A DNA stretch of 37,152 nt, taken from Okeania sp. SIO3I5 (GTDB taxonomy: Bacteria; Cyanobacteriota; Cyanobacteriia; Cyanobacteriales; Microcoleaceae). The DNA lies in NCBI RefSeq assembly GCF_010672085.1, contig NZ_JAAHHT010000020.1, forward strand, positions 1 through 37,152. The letters run 5' to 3'. Positions 534 to 16,754 of this stretch are shown here, piece by piece. The position numbers and the translations under genes are program-made. The notes beneath the pieces were generated by a model. The model did not search any database. It was not told the origin of the DNA and was given only the letters and a program-made list of their open reading frames with translations. How positions within the stretch are numbered: position 1 is the first letter of the stretch; each line of letters opens with the position of its first letter.

Positions 534-3373
534 TTAATTGGGAAACCAAGGTCCGACTATTTGTTTACCTTGTTTTTCTATTGCTGCTAATTCTAAGTTG
601 AATTGTAAAATCTTTTCCAAAATATTGTCATTCTTATTAAATTTATATGCTTGTATTACTAACTCATCTAGTTGAGCGTGAAGTTTAAATAGTTGACTGG
701 TAGATTCGGTAAAAAATTGGTTATAAAGTTGAGTTATTCCCCACTGTTTTTGTTTCATTTGTTCTGTCCGGGATTGGTGTAATTGTTGGGTGGTTTGGCG
801 AATTTCCTGAACTAATTTTTGACTAGGGTTTTGAGGAAATGGGAAAGTTTCAAAACAGGTATTATGAGTGTAGGGAATATCCCCTTTAAGAGTTGAACTT
901 TTAGCCTGAATCCAGAGACGATGAATTTTTGATGTAAGTATGCCAAGAATATAGAAATCATCTGAAGCAACAACAACATTTAAGTCTCCAGGTAGCCATT
1001 TAATAGGTACTTGTAAAAAGACTGCCCATTTAGAAACTCTTGGCACTGTAAAATAATATGATAAAGGAGCGATCGCTTTTCTCATTGCTGGACGAGAACG
1101 CAAAAACTGCCACCAATAATTCCTAGCTCTACTATCTCTATTGTTATCTCTTTCTGGCTTGACTGTAGTTTTAATATATTCAAAAGGTAAACTATAATTA
1201 CTAGCATCTTCTAAACTCATATCATTAAAATCAATAATCCATCTTTCAGGTTTACCTAATGGATTTTGAGCTAAATTTTTACCCATAGAAAATAGTTTCA
1301 AAATATCTTGATTTTTAGCATCAGCTTCAATCCATTTTTTTACTAATTCCTCAGTAATAATAAAACCATTACCTACAGGAATTACCCCTTGAAAACATTG
1401 ATTTTTATTAGCCTTTAACTTAACTGCTCCAGAAACATCTATAGTTGAAGTTAACGATGAATTAATCTGACTAACTTTTTGATTATCCAAATAGTAATAT
1501 TCTGGTTTTTGCCTACTCCAATTAACAATACTAACATGAACTTTTGCTTCCCCAGACCAAGGTTGAGTCGAAATAGCTTCATGGATATAACCACCATTTT
1601 GAGTAATAAAATCTAGAGATGCGACTCTACTTTTTCCCTGACTAACTGAATTTGTTCCTACTAACCCAGCTCTACCATTTTCTCCTAAATATTCGTGAGC
1701 TAGTCGATACCAATAACAGCAAAAATCCACAGAATCTTTCACATCAGAAAACTGTTCAAAAACTCTATCAACATACTCATCTCCAACAGCTAATCTGATA
1801 TGTTTTCCACCTAAAAAAGGAGGGTTGCCAATAATAGCATTGGCTTCCGGCCATTTACTAAATAAAGCATCTTGACAAATAATATTTTGATCAAGAGTAT
1901 CCAAAGGTAAAGCAGTTTCAGTTAACCCAAATTTATCAATAGCAACTTTCCGAGCAATCATTAAAGTTACTCTCGCCAATTCCACAGCAAATTGATTAGT
2001 ATCTATTCCATAAAATTGTATTGGAGTAACAAAACTAATCTCCATTTGTTGCCTTTCTGAACGGCGACGACTAGCAATTTTTTCCAACAATAATTGTTCG
2101 ATTCTTTTCAACTCTTGATAAGCAATATAAAGAAAATTTCCCGAACCACAAGCAGGATCTAAAACTCGATAACCTTGTAATTCAAGCTGCAATTTATTTA
2201 ATTCTTTAATAGTAGTCGCTGATTCAATTTTTTCCTCCCAAAATTTACTAATAGTCGGTCTGACAATTTTCATTATGTCAACTTCAGAAGTGAAATGAAT
2301 TCCATAACTATGACGTTTTTCTTTATCGGTTGCTGCTTCAAATATGTTGCCAAAAATTGCCGGGCGAATTTGACTCCAATTTTGCCTACCACAAGCTTCT
2401 AAAATAGTCAATTCCGATTTTGTTAACTCTATCGGATGAATATCAGAAAATAAACCTCCATTAAAATAATCGGTGGTGGTGCTGAGGAATGGTAGAGAGA
2501 GTGTGGGAGGTGTGGGAGGTGTGGGAGGTGTGGGAAGTTGGTTCGTGTGGGAAGAAATTACAAAACTTATGTATCTTCGCCATTCCTCAGCAGGACTACC
2601 AAATAATCTACTCCCTCATAACGTCCAGTAGGTGTAATTCCAGACTGATTCATTTCACGAAATAATCCACCAAGAATGTCATAAGAATTGCCACCTTTTA
2701 AGCAGTCTTGAACACAAGAAATCAACAAATTTTCGGGTAACATTCCTCTATCAGCAGCGAACATTGCTAAAACACATTGCAATACAAACCTTTGAGCGTC
2801 AAACTGATTAAATAATTGTTGTTTTTTACCTCTTTCTTGAAGTTCTTGAAAAAGCTGCCCCATCCGTTTTGCTGCTGTTTCTGTTACTTAGACTTGGTTA
2901 TTTATAAATACTGGTTGCCTGTTGGCTATTTCCATGAAGGTAAAAGCACCAGAACGTTGAGGTATTTGTGTCAATGGGATGCAGTCTACTGGAGTATATA
3001 ATTGAGTGTTGAAGTCAAAAATCCAAAATTCGTTAAAGTTGCAAAGTATGACATATTTGGGGCGATCAGGAATTAAGCGTATCCAATAATCAAATGCTTG
3101 GGAATAGTATTTATTTAAGTCTTCTCCACGTTTTTTCATTTCTATTAAAACCCGTGGTTTCCAGACTAAATCAGCAAAACCTGTATTACCTTTTTTACTG
3201 CCTTTTTTAACTCTTTGTTCGTAGGTAGCTCCTGCTTCTATTGCTCCCTGATGTCCGAATGCTTGAAAAAAGCGGTCTAAAAATATTTGTGCTTCTCCTT
3301 TTTCGTTTCCAGTGATGTGTTGTTGACAGAAAATGACAAAATTGTGGAGGTTTTCGGTAGAAGCTGACATCAT
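534..3373 (-). pseudogene. disrupted MmeI-like type IIL restriction-methyltransferase
   Basis: Three collinear reading frames together make one bifunctional restriction-modification protein. 3373-2888 carries the N-terminal nuclease: an Asp in FADLVW followed by IEMKKRG, a PD-(D/E)xK pattern. 2863-2567 matches the helical spacer. 2471-534 carries the adenine methyltransferase, with SAM motif DPACGSGNF and catalytic NPPF, then the target-recognition and C-terminal helical regions. Two lesions separate them: an in-frame TAA at 2888-2890, and a 129-bp element at 2472-2600 with 8-bp target duplication. Removing the element and one duplicate restores the frame (GVDY-FNGGLF) and would give about 900 codons, the usual length of MmeI-type enzymes. 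The family assignment rests on motifs and domain order. A methyltransferase fragment might still be made from an internal start near 2411, but a functional enzyme is unlikely. Confidence 0.8.
2464..2608. mobile_element. 129-bp MITE with 8-bp target duplication
   Basis: The element spans 2472-2600 and is flanked by AAATAATC at 2464-2471 and 2601-2608. Its 21-bp ends (2472-2492 and 2580-2600) are inverted and match at 18 of 21 positions, sharing GCTGAGGAATGG. The interior is noncoding and contains the 9-bp GTGGGAGGT minisatellite (2501-2554). It interrupts the MmeI-like gene and, with the duplication, adds 137 bp, shifting the frame. The transposase family that would move it is not identifiable here. 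Confidence 0.85.
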
Positions 3374-9170: not shown

Positions 9171-9285
9171 GGTGGGGAGGTGTGGGAAGTGTGGGAGGTG
9201 TGGGAGGTGTGGGGAGTGTGGGAGGTGTGGGAAGTGTGGGAGGTGTGGGAGGTGTGGGAAGTGTGGGGAGTGTGGGGAGTGTTGG
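9171..9285. repeat. 9-bp minisatellite, locus B
   Basis: About twelve units of TGTGGGAGG or TGTGGGAAG run in tandem. The period is a multiple of three, so artificial Gly-Val-rich and His-Thr-Ser-rich frames span it on both strands; they have no start signals and are not genes. The same unit is found at 2501-2554, 14745-14792, 15077-15252, 16447-16486 and, degenerate, 31787-31824. Confidence 0.9.
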
Positions 9286-9358
9286 AGAAAAGTCCGCTTT
9301 TATTCATGCAACTTGCGTAACTTCAAAATGTAATATCAACTGCAAGTAGTCAGTAGTC

Positions 9359-9939: not shown

Positions 9940-12549
9940 GTGTTTGGCATAAATTTGCAGGCAAAATATCTCAGAAAAATTATCACATTCCTAATTACAG
10001 TAGTTTTAATATCTGGTTTAGTTAGTTGTAGCGATCGCCTCCCAGAATTATCAAAATTTGGTTCGGAAAAATCTGTAGCTACTTCTACTACTTCTAAAAT
10101 ATCTGAAGTTTCCCCACCAAAAATAATTCAACAATTGCGTCAAGCGATCGACATATACAAACCACAACTGGCAATACAAAGTCCGCAACCGGACCAAATA
10201 TTTGAAGACAACGATATTAGTGTGCAACTTCAGGTCAAAGACTTACCTATATTCAAGTCAGATTTAGACTTAGGACCTTATGTAGAAGTAATCTTAGACG
10301 ATCAACATTACACAAAAATCTATAACCTTGATGAATCGATTGTACTATCAGATTTAGAACCAGGTACTCATACTCTCAGAGTTTTTGCTTGTCGTCCGTG
10401 GGATGAAAGTTTTAAGAATGAAGGTGCTTACGCTCAAACTACGTTTCATATCTTTACCAAAACCGCAAATAATGATCCTGCTCCCGACTTACCATTGTTA
10501 ACTTATAATAGTCCGGTAGGTAGCTATGGTGCAGAACCTATTATGATTGACTACTACCTAACTAATGCACCATTGCACTCGGTAGCGCGAGAAGATTCTG
10601 AAGATGAAATAGCTGATTGGGGTATTCGTGTTACTGTTAATGGAACCAGTTTTATTACCGATGGATGGGAACCAATATATTTACAAGGGTTTGATCCAGG
10701 AAAAAATTGGGTGAAGTTAGAATATATTGATGAATCGGGTAATCCAGTTAATAATGTTTATAACAATACTGTTCGCTTGATTACCTATAAACCAGATGGG
10801 GAAGATACTCTTAGTAAAATAATTCGAGGAGAAATTTCACTTAAAGAAGCACTTAGTATAGTTGATCGGGAATATATCTATGAGAAATCACAACCAGAAA
10901 CTACTTCAGAAACAGAAGAAATTACTATTGATGAGGAATTAGAAGTTGATGAAACTTTGGTTGAACCAATATCGGAAGAAATTACTACTGATGAGGAGTT
11001 AGAAGTTGATGAAACTTTGGTTGAACCAATATCGGAAGAAATTACTACTGATGAGGAGTTAGAAGTTGATGAAACTTTGGTTGAACCAATATCGGAAGAA
11101 ATTACTACTGATGAGGAATTAGAAGTTGATGAAACTTTGGTTGAACCAATATCGGAAGAAATTACTACTGATGAGGAGTTAGAAGTTGATGAAACTTTGG
11201 TTGAACCAATATCGGAAGAAATTACTACTGATGAGGAGTTAGAAGTTGATGAAATTTTGGTTGAACCAATATCGGAAGAAATTACTACTGATGAGGAGTT
11301 AGAAGTTGATGAAACTTTGGTTGAACCAACCCAAGCTATTGAATCTGAAAAAATACAAGCACTGAAAGAAAAAATTGAGATATCAACAAATTGGATTAAA
11401 AATAGATTTAAAGATATAAATCAACTCATTAACAAACTGACAGAACCAACTTCAGAAGAAAGTTTAAATGTTACAAAAGAATCTGAAACTGAAGACTCAC
11501 TTGAGCAAAATGAGCTTTCTAATGTACTAGAAATAGTAGACGAATTACCTAGACAAGAGTCAGTCAAAGAAATGCCTCTGCCAGAAACTTCTAACCTAAC
11601 TCCAAATTTAGAAGAAGTTACTGAATCAATGGAAGATTACTCTATTGATCAAAATGAAGATTATCAAGAAGAAACTACTATAGAATTAGAAGAAATAATG
11701 CCGGAAAAATCTAATGTTGTTGTGGATTTTGATGAACTAGAAAGTGATGATTCGGCATCAGATTTGACTCAAAAAATTGAACCTGAAAATATTCTTGATT
11801 CAGTAGAAGCAGAAGAAATAATGCCGGAAAAATCTGAACTTGTTGTGGAGTTTGATGAGCTAGAAAGTGATGATTTGACATCAGATGTTACTCAAAAAAT
11901 TGAACCTGAAAATATTCTTGATTCAGCAGAAGCAGAAGAAATGATTCAGGAAAAATCTGAAGTTGTTGTGGAGTTTGATGAACTAGAAAGTGATGATTCG
12001 GCATCAGATGTTACTCAAAAAATTGAATCTGAAAATATTCTTGATTCAGTAGAAGCAGAAGAAATAATGCCGGAAAAATCTGAACTTGTTGTGGAGTTTG
12101 ATGAACTAGAAAGTGATGATTCGGCATCAGATGTTACTCAAAAAATTGAATCTGAAAATATTCTTGATTCAGTAGAAGCAGAAGAAATAATGCCGGAAAA
12201 ATCTGAACTTGTTGTGGATTTTGATGAACTAGAAAGTGATGATTCGGCATCAGATGTTACTCAAAAAATTGAATCTGAAAATATTCTTGATTCAGTAGAA
12301 GCAGAAGAAATAATGCCGGAAAAATCTGAACTTGTTGTGGATTTTGATGAACTAGAAAGTGATGATTCGGCATCAGATGTTACTCAAAAAATTGAATCTG
12401 AAAATATTCTTGATTCAGTAGAAGCAGAAGAAATAATGCCGGAAAAATCTGAACTTGTTGTGGATTTTGATGAACTAGAAAGTGATGATTCGGCATCAGA
12501 TGTTACTCAAAAAATTGAATCTGAAAATATTCTTGATTCAATTGATTGA
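9940..12549 (+). CDS. lipoprotein with two acidic tandem-repeat arrays
   Basis: A secreted lipoprotein of 869 aa if started at GTG 9940, which has AGGAG at 9927-9931, eight bases upstream; a TTG at 9904 is in frame but has no such site. The signal peptide ends in lipobox LVSC with Cys30. Residues about 60-300 look like two beta-sandwich domains (LEPGTHTLRVFA; GFDPGKNWVKLEY). Then come seven 20-residue repeats (DEELEVDETLVEP, DNA 10921-11330), a linker with a short coiled-coil-like stretch, and seven 41-residue repeats (EEIMPEKSELVV..FDELESDD, DNA 11689-12540). The repeats are almost entirely acidic and hydrophobic with few basic residues. The N-terminal part resembles a conserved cyanobacterial protein of unknown role. 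Function unknown; surface cation binding is only a guess from the charge. Confidence 0.8.
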   Translation: MFGINLQAKYLRKIITFLITVVLISGLVSCSDRLPELSKFGSEKSVATSTTSKISEVSPPKIIQQLRQAIDIYKPQLAIQSPQPDQIFEDNDISVQLQVKDLPIFKSDLDLGPYVEVILDDQHYTKIYNLDESIVLSDLEPGTHTLRVFACRPWDESFKNEGAYAQTTFHIFTKTANNDPAPDLPLLTYNSPVGSYGAEPIMIDYYLTNAPLHSVAREDSEDEIADWGIRVTVNGTSFITDGWEPIYLQGFDPGKNWVKLEYIDESGNPVNNVYNNTVRLITYKPDGEDTLSKIIRGEISLKEALSIVDREYIYEKSQPETTSETEEITIDEELEVDETLVEPISEEITTDEELEVDETLVEPISEEITTDEELEVDETLVEPISEEITTDEELEVDETLVEPISEEITTDEELEVDETLVEPISEEITTDEELEVDEILVEPISEEITTDEELEVDETLVEPTQAIESEKIQALKEKIEISTNWIKNRFKDINQLINKLTEPTSEESLNVTKESETEDSLEQNELSNVLEIVDELPRQESVKEMPLPETSNLTPNLEEVTESMEDYSIDQNEDYQEETTIELEEIMPEKSNVVVDFDELESDDSASDLTQKIEPENILDSVEAEEIMPEKSELVVEFDELESDDLTSDVTQKIEPENILDSAEAEEMIQEKSEVVVEFDELESDDSASDVTQKIESENILDSVEAEEIMPEKSELVVEFDELESDDSASDVTQKIESENILDSVEAEEIMPEKSELVVDFDELESDDSASDVTQKIESENILDSVEAEEIMPEKSELVVDFDELESDDSASDVTQKIESENILDSVEAEEIMPEKSELVVDFDELESDDSASDVTQKIESENILDSID
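10921..11330 (+). repeat. 60-bp coding tandem repeat, seven units
   Basis: Seven units of 60 bp, nearly identical at the DNA level (the last is partial), each encoding about 20 residues with DEELEVDETLVEP. Differences between units are single bases such as GAG/GAA, so expansion is recent. Confidence 0.95.
11689..12540 (+). repeat. 123-bp coding tandem repeat, seven units
   Basis: Units begin at 11689, 11812, 11935, 12058, 12181, 12304 and 12427, each encoding 41 residues. Units 1-3 have diverged, while units 5-7 appear identical, so the array has grown from its 3' end. Confidence 0.95.
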
Positions 12550-14744: not shown

Positions 14745-14792
14745 GAGTGTGGGAAGGGTGGGGAGTGTGGGAAGGGTGGGGAGTGTGGGAAG
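14745..14792. repeat. 9-bp minisatellite, locus C
   Basis: Alternating GAGTGTGGGAAGG and GTGGG units on the plus strand begin just after the radical SAM stop codon. They belong to the same family as locus B but have a less regular period. Confidence 0.75.
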
Positions 14793-14862: not shown

Positions 14863-14968
14863 AACAGGACTTACGCAAAGAAACCCGGTTTCTACGGTAA
14901 ATCATTGTTTTTGACAATAAACATCTACGAGAAACCGGGTTTCTGGGTTTGCCTGCGTAAATCCTGTT
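14863..14968. mobile_element. MITE-like element with AACAGGACTTACGCA ends
   Basis: A 106-bp element with inverted ends AACAGGACTTACGCA (14863-14877) and the complement of AACAGGATTTACGCA (14954-14968), 14 of 15 matching. Inside are AGAAACCCGGTTTCT and its partner AGAAACCGGGTTTCT, so the whole can fold on itself. No ORF is present. A lone end-like TGCGTAAGTCTTGT occurs at about 16664. Confidence 0.65.
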
Positions 14969-15076
14969 TAAATGTCAAATAACTGCCCGAAACTATTGTC
15001 TTGTCAAAGTTTTTAGTAGATAAAATCACGCCTTTTGACTTCAGTGAATTTGACTTCCATGAAACGGTATAGTTTT

Positions 15077-15252
15077 CCCTCCACACTTCCCAGACCTCCC
15101 ACACTTCCCACACTTCCCACACTTTCCACACTTCCCACACTTCCCACACCTCCCACACTTTCCACACTTCCCACACTTCCCACACTTCCCAGACCTCCCA
15201 CACCTCCCACACTTCCCACACCTCCCACACCTCCCACACTTCCCACACCTCC
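15077..15252. repeat. 9-bp minisatellite, locus D, abutting recF
   Basis: About nineteen units of CCCACACTT or CCCACACCT, i.e. the family unit in the opposite orientation to the other loci. It ends 14 bases before the recF start codon, so it occupies the position of the recF leader. The Trp-Glu-Val and Pro-Thr-Leu frames across it are artefacts. Confidence 0.9.
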
Positions 15253-15266
15253 TAATTTCCTCTTTT

Positions 15267-16439
15267 ATGTACCTGAGACATTTACATTTACGACAGTTTA
15301 GGAACTATCGAGACCAGGAAGTTAAATTTGATGCTGCCAAAACAATTTTGGTGGGAGATAATGCTCAGGGAAAATCTAATTTACTAGAGTCAGTAGAGTT
15401 ACTTTCTACTCTTAAGTCTCATCGAGCAATTCGCGATCGCGACTTAATCCTAGATGGCAAACCAGCAGGTCAAATTAAAGCATCTTTAGAAAGACAATTG
15501 GGAAATATTGACTTGACTCTAACTCTGCGGAGTCAAGGTAAACGCACCGTCGCAGTTAATGGTGAAACTTTACGTCGCCATTTAGACTTTTTAAGTATTC
15601 TGAACGTGGTTCATTTTTCTAGTCTAGATTTAGATTTGGTCAGAGGTGGACCAGAAGTACGACGTAATTGGTTAGACCGACTTTTGGTGCAATTAGAACC
15701 TGTTTATGCTCATATTCTCCAACAGTATAATCAAGTTCTCCGTCAACGAAATGCTTTATTAAAGAAAATTCGTCAACAAAAGATCGCAGCAGAAACTACT
15801 GGTTCGTTATATTCTATTCCAACTGGGGAGTTAGCTTTGTGGGATGCTCAGTTGGCAACTACTGGAGCGCGAGTAATTCGGCGACGACAGCGACTTTTAC
15901 AGCGGTTGGCACCTTTGGCGACTGAATGGCATCGTGCTATTAGTGGGAGTATAGAAGTTTTACAAATGGAATATTTAGCAAATGTCACTGTTGATAGTAA
16001 AGAGTTAATTCTTCAGGAGAGTTTGGAGGGAGTACGTCAAGCTTTTTTAGAGAAAATCAAAGCACGAGCGATCGCTGAACAATATCAAGGTACTACGGTA
16101 GTAGGTCCCCATCGGGATGATGTAACTTTTACTATTAATGATACTCCAGCGCGACAATATGGTTCTCAGGGGCAGCAGCGGACTTTGGTATTAGCTTTGA
16201 AATTAGCTGAATTGCAACTTATTGAGCAAGTGGTGAATGAACCGCCTTTGTTGTTGTTAGATGATGTTTTGGCAGAATTAGATTTGCATCGACAAAATCA
16301 ATTGTTAGAAGCAATTACTAATCGTTTTCAAACTTTAATTACTACTACTCATTTGGGGTGTTTTGATGGGCAGTGGTTACAGGATACTCAAATTCTTTCG
16401 GTACAGTCGGGGAAGATTAGTTATTTCTTTGATTTTTAG
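15267..16439 (+). CDS. recF: DNA replication and repair protein RecF
   Basis: RecF, 390 aa, is the SMC-like ATPase of the RecFOR pathway; it helps load RecA at single-strand gaps. The start [18 protein letters not shown] and Walker A motif GDNAQGKSN (residues 30-38) are diagnostic. The signature region ([19 protein letters not shown]) and Walker [13 protein letters not shown] are in the C-terminal third. Length is normal (about 360-390). The start codon is the first of the RecF fold. No Shine-Dalgarno is visible because the upstream sequence is the CT-rich minisatellite, which is odd. psb27 follows 315 bp downstream with repeats between, so cotranscription is doubtful. Confidence 0.97.
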
Positions 16440-16446
16440 GAAGTAG

Positions 16447-16754
16447 GAGAGTGTGGAAAGTTTGGCGAGTGTGGGAAGGGTGGGGAGATAAAGTATCCTT
16501 TTTCAATTTATTTCTAACCCTTCTACCTTAATTTGACAAAAAAGAAAAACTGTGATAAAAAACATTTTTTTAGTAACCATAACTCAGGACTGAGGCAAAA
16601 TATTAAATCACACACCATCTGTAGGGGCGATTCGCGAATCGCCCCTACTAGATATGGAGGTTCTGCGTAAGTCTTGTATACGAAAATCCCAAGTCAAATC
16701 AAACTATGAGATAATCCATAATAAGTCAGATACCATAGTAAAAAAGAAAGTTCC
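16447..16754. other. recF-psb27 spacer with minisatellite E and palindrome
   Basis: 16447-16486 is a degenerate copy of the 9-bp minisatellite. 16621-16648 is a perfect 28-bp palindrome whose left arm is GTAGGGGCGATTCG. A TGCGTAAGTCTTGT end-like sequence follows at about 16664. No gene is supported in the spacer. Confidence 0.7.

Follow-up and report, generated by a model that had tools for sequence, protein, structure and literature searches.

A 129-bp MITE, probably mobilised by an IS1-type transposase, encloses a minisatellite and interrupts an MmeI-like gene in a cyanobacterial genome

Among the closest described systems is BrickBuilt, a MITE of Porphyromonas gingivalis which, in the relevant portions of its description, encloses a minisatellite of 1 to 22.8 units of 23 nt between a conserved flanking "leader" and "tail" (PMC4596501). 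Nineteen copies were reported in one strain and described as always intergenic, and the authors propose that the element propagates the repeat (PMC4596501). In the passages of the MITEAba12 paper that concern it, a pair of insertion sequences most like the IS1-family ISAba3 has a 24-bp end starting GGTGGTG, with 8-bp duplications around the insert that the pair bounds (PMC6382973). Nezha and other cyanobacterial MITEs are short non-autonomous elements, as cited in the same paper and in a review of prokaryote MITEs (PMC10969869, PMC6382973), and the Trichodesmium pangenome belongs to the related literature (PMC9950141).

The element studied here lies in a window of 37,152 bp, by which the whole analysed stretch of DNA is meant (contig C113, about 37 kb, of a host genome of 10.5 Mb in 562 contigs). 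It resembles Nezha as a short non-autonomous cyanobacterial element, a likeness drawn from the citations of Nezha in those sources and not from sequence. Print records of the family to which it belongs were not found in the open-access literature searched.

Footprint of the insertion and the interrupted gene

A preliminary description of this DNA had reported a 129-bp MITE with an 8-bp target-site duplication. Exact copies of AAATAATC were found on both sides of positions 2472–2600 (left copy 2464–2471, right copy 2601–2608), and the 129-bp element between them, on the plus strand, was without a transposase gene. The 21-bp terminal inverted repeats, a GG-type left end at 2472–2492 (plus strand) and a CC-type right end at 2580–2600 (minus strand), gave on recomputation the 18 matches of 21 that had been claimed. 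Comparison of 58 copies showed that the inner blocks next to these ends, TAGAGAGA at 2493–2500 and the right inner block at 2554–2579 (both plus strand), were conserved. The 53-bp minisatellite core lies between the blocks at 2501–2553 (plus strand) and consists of about six units of 9 bp (GTGTGGGAR and the variant GTTGGTTC). TRF also detected a tandem repeat with a 9-bp unit inside the element, as had been described, and placed it at 2501–2535; the array reaches 2553 when the variant units are counted.

When the MITE was folded as a DNA strand, its ends formed 20 base pairs with each other in the centroid structure, with a fold-energy z-score of −3.30, and none of 200 shuffles folded equally well. 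The window copy is a short element without a transposase gene, with inverted ends, a target-site duplication of fixed length and dispersed copies, and these are features by which a MITE is recognised, as are the full-length relatives with nearly the same ends in same-genus genomes. No Rfam match to a structured RNA was obtained at window positions 2300–2800, and a search of 72,556 records for a plasmid source of the MITE found none at E 1e-5.

Judged by its profile matches, the host gene is an MmeI-like type IIG restriction enzyme gene, with the N-terminal, helicase spacer, methyltransferase and target-recognition domains all present. It is read from the minus strand in three pieces: the 5′ piece at 2888–3373 (MmeI_N), the middle piece at 2567–2863 (MmeI_hel) and the 3′ piece at 534–2411 (MmeI_Mtase and MmeI_TRD). 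The three pieces matched four Pfam MmeI domains (PF20464, PF20465, PF20473, and PF20466), and the PADLOC type IIG model PDLC03599 matched each of them. Removal of the element and one duplicate had been predicted to join GVDY to FNGGLF in frame, and both flanks do form one frame. That the MITE split the gene is true, but the earlier account did not mention a second break in the gene, an in-frame stop of its own at 2888–2890. This stop ends the 5′ piece independently of the MITE, and the frame of the middle piece enters the MITE and stops inside it.

Relatives of the 3′ piece were present in 39 of 59 genomes, host included. Twenty loci were fetched for comparison of the junction, 19 of them other than the window's own. 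Alignment of these 19 homologous loci showed that 15 were uninterrupted and two were in pieces away from the junction; two gave no match. Alignment with an uninterrupted homologue had been suggested as a check, and the 129 bp were found to be missing from 15 of the 19. In the nearest relative, locus L271 of the same-genus genome G002 (Hydrocoleum sp. CS-953), the DNA flanks overlapped on exactly one AAATAATC (L271:3094–3101), which is an empty site. An assembly artefact was ruled out by this empty site together with the position of the MITE copy, internal to a 37-kb contig.

The codon at 2888–2890, a stop in the window, is a sense codon in all 16 loci whose alignment covers it. Since the stop lies outside the element and is absent from these 16 loci, the gene was broken twice, by independent events. 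The gene at L271 carries its own in-frame stop at a different place from that of the window, so decay of the MmeI-like gene is not tied to the MITE. The stop codon that the gene carries besides, whether older or younger than the insertion, may explain why the insertion persisted. The interruption could also have been tolerated because the gene pieces work as separate proteins of a split enzyme, perhaps with transcription from the MITE, and the 3′ piece does keep an open frame of 625 aa that includes the methyltransferase and target-recognition domains. This is nevertheless unlikely: a separate stop ends the 5′ piece, the middle piece ends in the MITE, and the nearest relative's gene likewise has an in-frame stop, at another place, a picture that resembles ordinary decay.

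Copies in the host genome and their changed ends

A search with the end pattern, allowing up to 3 mismatches, gave 130 matches in the 10.5-Mb host genome and none for the backwards-read control. This abundance, together with the matching flanks, is far beyond chance. The preliminary description had looked to second genomic copies of the ends, and dozens of paired copies were present in the host. The 58 paired copies examined were 101–270 bp long; they were collected from the fetched stretches, which take in the 100 end matches listed out of 130 apart from those at C552 and C194, and are a lower bound. Also left out were a 515-bp composite spanning two neighbouring copies (L011), a copy lying 6 bp from the start of its contig (L019) and copies that were halved or stood at a contig end (L060, L290, L298, and L299).

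The flank duplications of the 58 copies matched at 8/8 positions in 50, at 7/8 in four and at 4/8 or fewer in four. A 9-bp duplication fitted none of the 50 exact copies, and control flanks shifted by 10 bp never had more than 5/8 positions matching. The consensus of the duplications leaned towards NAAAWTTT, the left half tending to A and the right half to T. Insertions that left an open frame of at least 60 codons on both sides were found in 4/58 copies, a lower bound with some flanks too short for the 60-codon threshold, compared with 873 of 2000 random positions. Because only these four copies sit in open frames, the window copy is an unusual genic insertion. Its 29-nt left and 47-nt right end blocks are the modal ones, as in 20/58 copies, the left block alone being identical in 44/58; with end blocks equal to the family mode, the window copy is probably recent.

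The inner end CTGAGGAATGG, preceded by GGTRGTNNTG, had 96 exact matches in the host and none in the 58 other genomes searched. Among the 58 copies, the left end was exactly CTGAGGAATGG in 54, while the right end was CTGAGGAATGG in 40 (one with a substitution), CATT-type in 13, CATAGT in four and of another type in one. In the MITEs of relatives, both ends were CATAGT or of a similar CAT type. Judged from these end types, the simplest order would be that the left end changed first and that the right end later took the identical change within a few bases. A candidate cause of this matching would be template switching between the arms of the hairpin, with selection to match a changed IS1 as the alternative.

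IS1-type partners in related genomes

IS1 makes duplications of 8 to 10 bp, and its transposase is made by −1 frameshifting on an A run. A search for a full-length insertion sequence with the same ends, proposed in the preliminary description, succeeded in same-genus genomes, where two elements have nearly the same ends, but not in the host assembly. In the same-genus genome G003, locus L101 is a 789-bp IS1 with both 21-bp ends identical (GGTAGTCCTGCATAGTAATGG) and the duplication GACTATCT. It matched the profiles Zn_ribbon_InsA (PF03811, 1.1e-06) and DDE_Tnp_IS1 (PF03400, 8.8e-22; InsB), and its −1 frame is open across a run of nine A (A9); the IS1-family name of this partner is a tool match. 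Its 783-bp relative in G004 (L151) has the same ends and a GAATAGTT duplication. The L101 end was identical at 20/21 positions to host right ends of the CATTGT type and at 18/21 to those of the CTGAGG type, the window's right end also scoring 18/21. It agreed at 18/21 with the left end common in relatives' MITEs and at only 15/21 with the host left end. The MITE resembles the IS1 family in ends starting GGTxGT..TG, in 8-bp duplications and in a partner with InsA/InsB and the frameshift run; it differs in having neither InsA nor InsB.

The transposase families searched in the host were IS1 (PF03400) and IS1595 (PF12762), and IS1595 as the partner was rejected with 0 matches to PF12762. PF03400 gave three matches at two places (C10 and C201), both with other ends. 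The C10 IS1 has 25-bp ends (GGTGGTCCTGTATATG...), a AACAATTA duplication and, within the matched stretch, a stop, and the C201 IS1 likewise carries ends different from those of the MITE. The search of the host with L101 DNA returned only the C10 relative and two fragments. By these profile and DNA searches no intact IS1 with the MITE ends was found in the host assembly, which at 562 contigs may be incomplete.

Taken with the footprint, the relative's empty site and the multicopy family with 8-bp duplications, the same-genus IS1 with nearly the same ends makes it very probable that the element at 2472–2600 is a non-autonomous transposon (MITE) with IS1-family ends, moved by an IS1-type transposase. 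Such a transposase would have bound both 21-bp ends and moved the element; the MmeI-like gene would have been cut with an 8-bp stagger, and repair would have left the AAATAATC duplication. The mover may have been an IS1 of the L101 type or a lost sibling with changed ends, and an IS1 with the ends GGTRGTSSTGCTGAGGAATGG would be the expected mobiliser of the host copies. The CTGAGGAATGG variant occurs only in the host among the 59 genomes, so that none of the IS1 elements found carries exactly the ends of the commonest copies.

The same two results, a host end variant found in none of the other genomes (59 searched, host included) and a host assembly in which no intact IS1 with the MITE ends was found, would also fit mobilisation by a transposase unrelated to IS1 whose ends have converged, such as one of another family that makes 8-bp duplications. 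A mobiliser of this kind is improbable: the IS1 copy of G003 agrees in end sequence, duplication length and genus, its 21-bp end being a single position away from one host right-end type, and the search for an IS1595-type transposase in the host was negative.

A different 125-bp MITE, with similar IS1-type ends, an unrelated interior and no minisatellite, was observed in related genomes at L147, L199, L231, and L248.

Repeat core, free arrays and comparison with BrickBuilt

Twenty copies with identical end blocks carried 20 different arrays of 4 to 21 units, and the 9-bp minisatellite core changes in length and units much faster than the MITE ends. The array would most likely change by replication slippage and exchange, and the minisatellite may be carried passively, being probably not needed for transposition.

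The copies of Okeania genomes (e.g., L192, L213, L217, L244, and L246) had closely similar inner blocks around an 8-bp GGGGAGAT repeat, and the cores of other relatives' MITEs were mixtures of repeat types. The relatives compared included, besides G002, Okeania sp. SIO3B5 (G018) and a Trichodesmium MAG (G010), both identified, like G002 with its 2957 bp, by exact sequence identity to a named record; G012, G023, and G030 are called Okeania by the genus label that they have in common with G018. Exact 18-base patterns of the 9-bp unit (either purine last) and of the 8-bp unit were counted genome-wide, MITE cores included. The 9-bp and 8-bp counts were 1132 vs 32 in the host, 20 vs 368 in G018, 8 vs 244 in G012, 37 vs 110 in G023, 49 vs 47 in G002, 67 vs 100 in G003, 90 vs 59 in G013, and 90 vs 20 in G042. 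Outside paired MITEs, the counts were 70 vs 7 in 800 kb of the host and 0 vs 19 in 400 kb of G030, where only one paired MITE was present. Core and free arrays agree in these two sampled genomes; the mixed counts of G002, G003, and G013 carry no weight either way. Genomes in which the MITE search gave no match, such as G038 with 44 matches, contain the 8-bp repeat as well.

Arrays of at least three units numbered 34 in 800 kb of the host plus the window: ten were with this MITE (two as right-half remnants), seven were in three other repeated contexts and 17 stood alone. Exact unit pairs in the 800 kb lay inside paired copies in 31 of 101 cases. The suggestion that the element spreads the 9-bp repeat through the genome therefore holds for about a third of the repeats by either count, but 24 of the 34 arrays lie outside it, and the array census rejects the MITE as sole spreader. 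Because only 10/34 arrays belong with the MITE, it is one vehicle among several.

The 24 arrays outside the MITE, with seven in other repeated contexts, are also what would be expected if the 9-bp minisatellite were the active thing and the element merely an array flanked by inverted ends by chance. In G042, a genome from another family, exact unit pairs number 90, and the matches to the MITE fell within query positions 12–87 among the matches listed (14 of 92 candidates scored). However, it is the inverted ends, not the array, that the duplications adjoin, different genera share the end blocks but not the array, and the empty site in the relative disfavours an active array; this explanation is highly improbable beside a transposon moved by its ends.

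Four more 9-bp arrays without MITE ends were observed in the window (9180–9287, 14747–14791, 15078–15248, and 16451–16486), one of which underlies open frames at 14925–15301 on both strands. At L329:17257, L343:3491, and L347:13527 a 9-bp array lies between other inverted flanks (CCGGACATGATAT-like, CCGGTT-like, and ACACCTAAAA-like), as if carried by other small elements. At L036 (host, C24) and L268, the right inner block of the MITE contains another small element, its ends resembling GACTTGTCGCT, apparently at the same TA and apparently in opposite orientation. Among other repeats, a protein gene of the window has in-frame tandem repeats of 60 bp (10915–11329) and 123 bp (11681–12540) with 98% and 96% matches, and heptamer tandem repeats were the commonest short arrays in the host sample L310–L349 (387/807 TRF rows).

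For an IS1 MITE family, a broader and still doubtful reading may be offered tentatively. The MITE ends and inner blocks would be common to marine Microcoleaceae, and the core would be an exchangeable minisatellite, its unit set by lineage and matching the free arrays of the genome (9-bp GTGTGGGAR in the host, 8-bp GGGGAGAT in Okeania). The free arrays would overwrite the core or be seeded by it, so that MITE and minisatellite evolve together, and the host right inner end would have been rewritten to the left one (CAT-type to CTGAGG), as by template switching across the hairpin. An exchange between core and free arrays, if real, would tie the spread of a transposon to repeat growth in large marine filamentous cyanobacterial genomes. 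The 20 copies with identical end blocks and 20 arrays form a natural experiment, in which the minisatellite is a fast clock inside a slow transposon.

Here a footprint, an empty site and an IS1 partner are documented together for a bacterial MITE family. Compared with BrickBuilt, it is likewise a bacterial MITE around a minisatellite, with a unit number that varies between copies and with conserved flanking parts. BrickBuilt differs in its 23-nt unit and has no named parent in the relevant portions of its description (PMC4596501), whereas the host family has a 9-bp unit, an IS1 partner, 8-bp duplications, an empty site and, in the window, a genic copy. The host family works like BrickBuilt and, because of its different unit and its IS1 partner, is not a member of it. 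MITEs with minisatellites are already known from BrickBuilt; the new points are this family, its connection with IS1 and the difference in repeat core from genus to genus.
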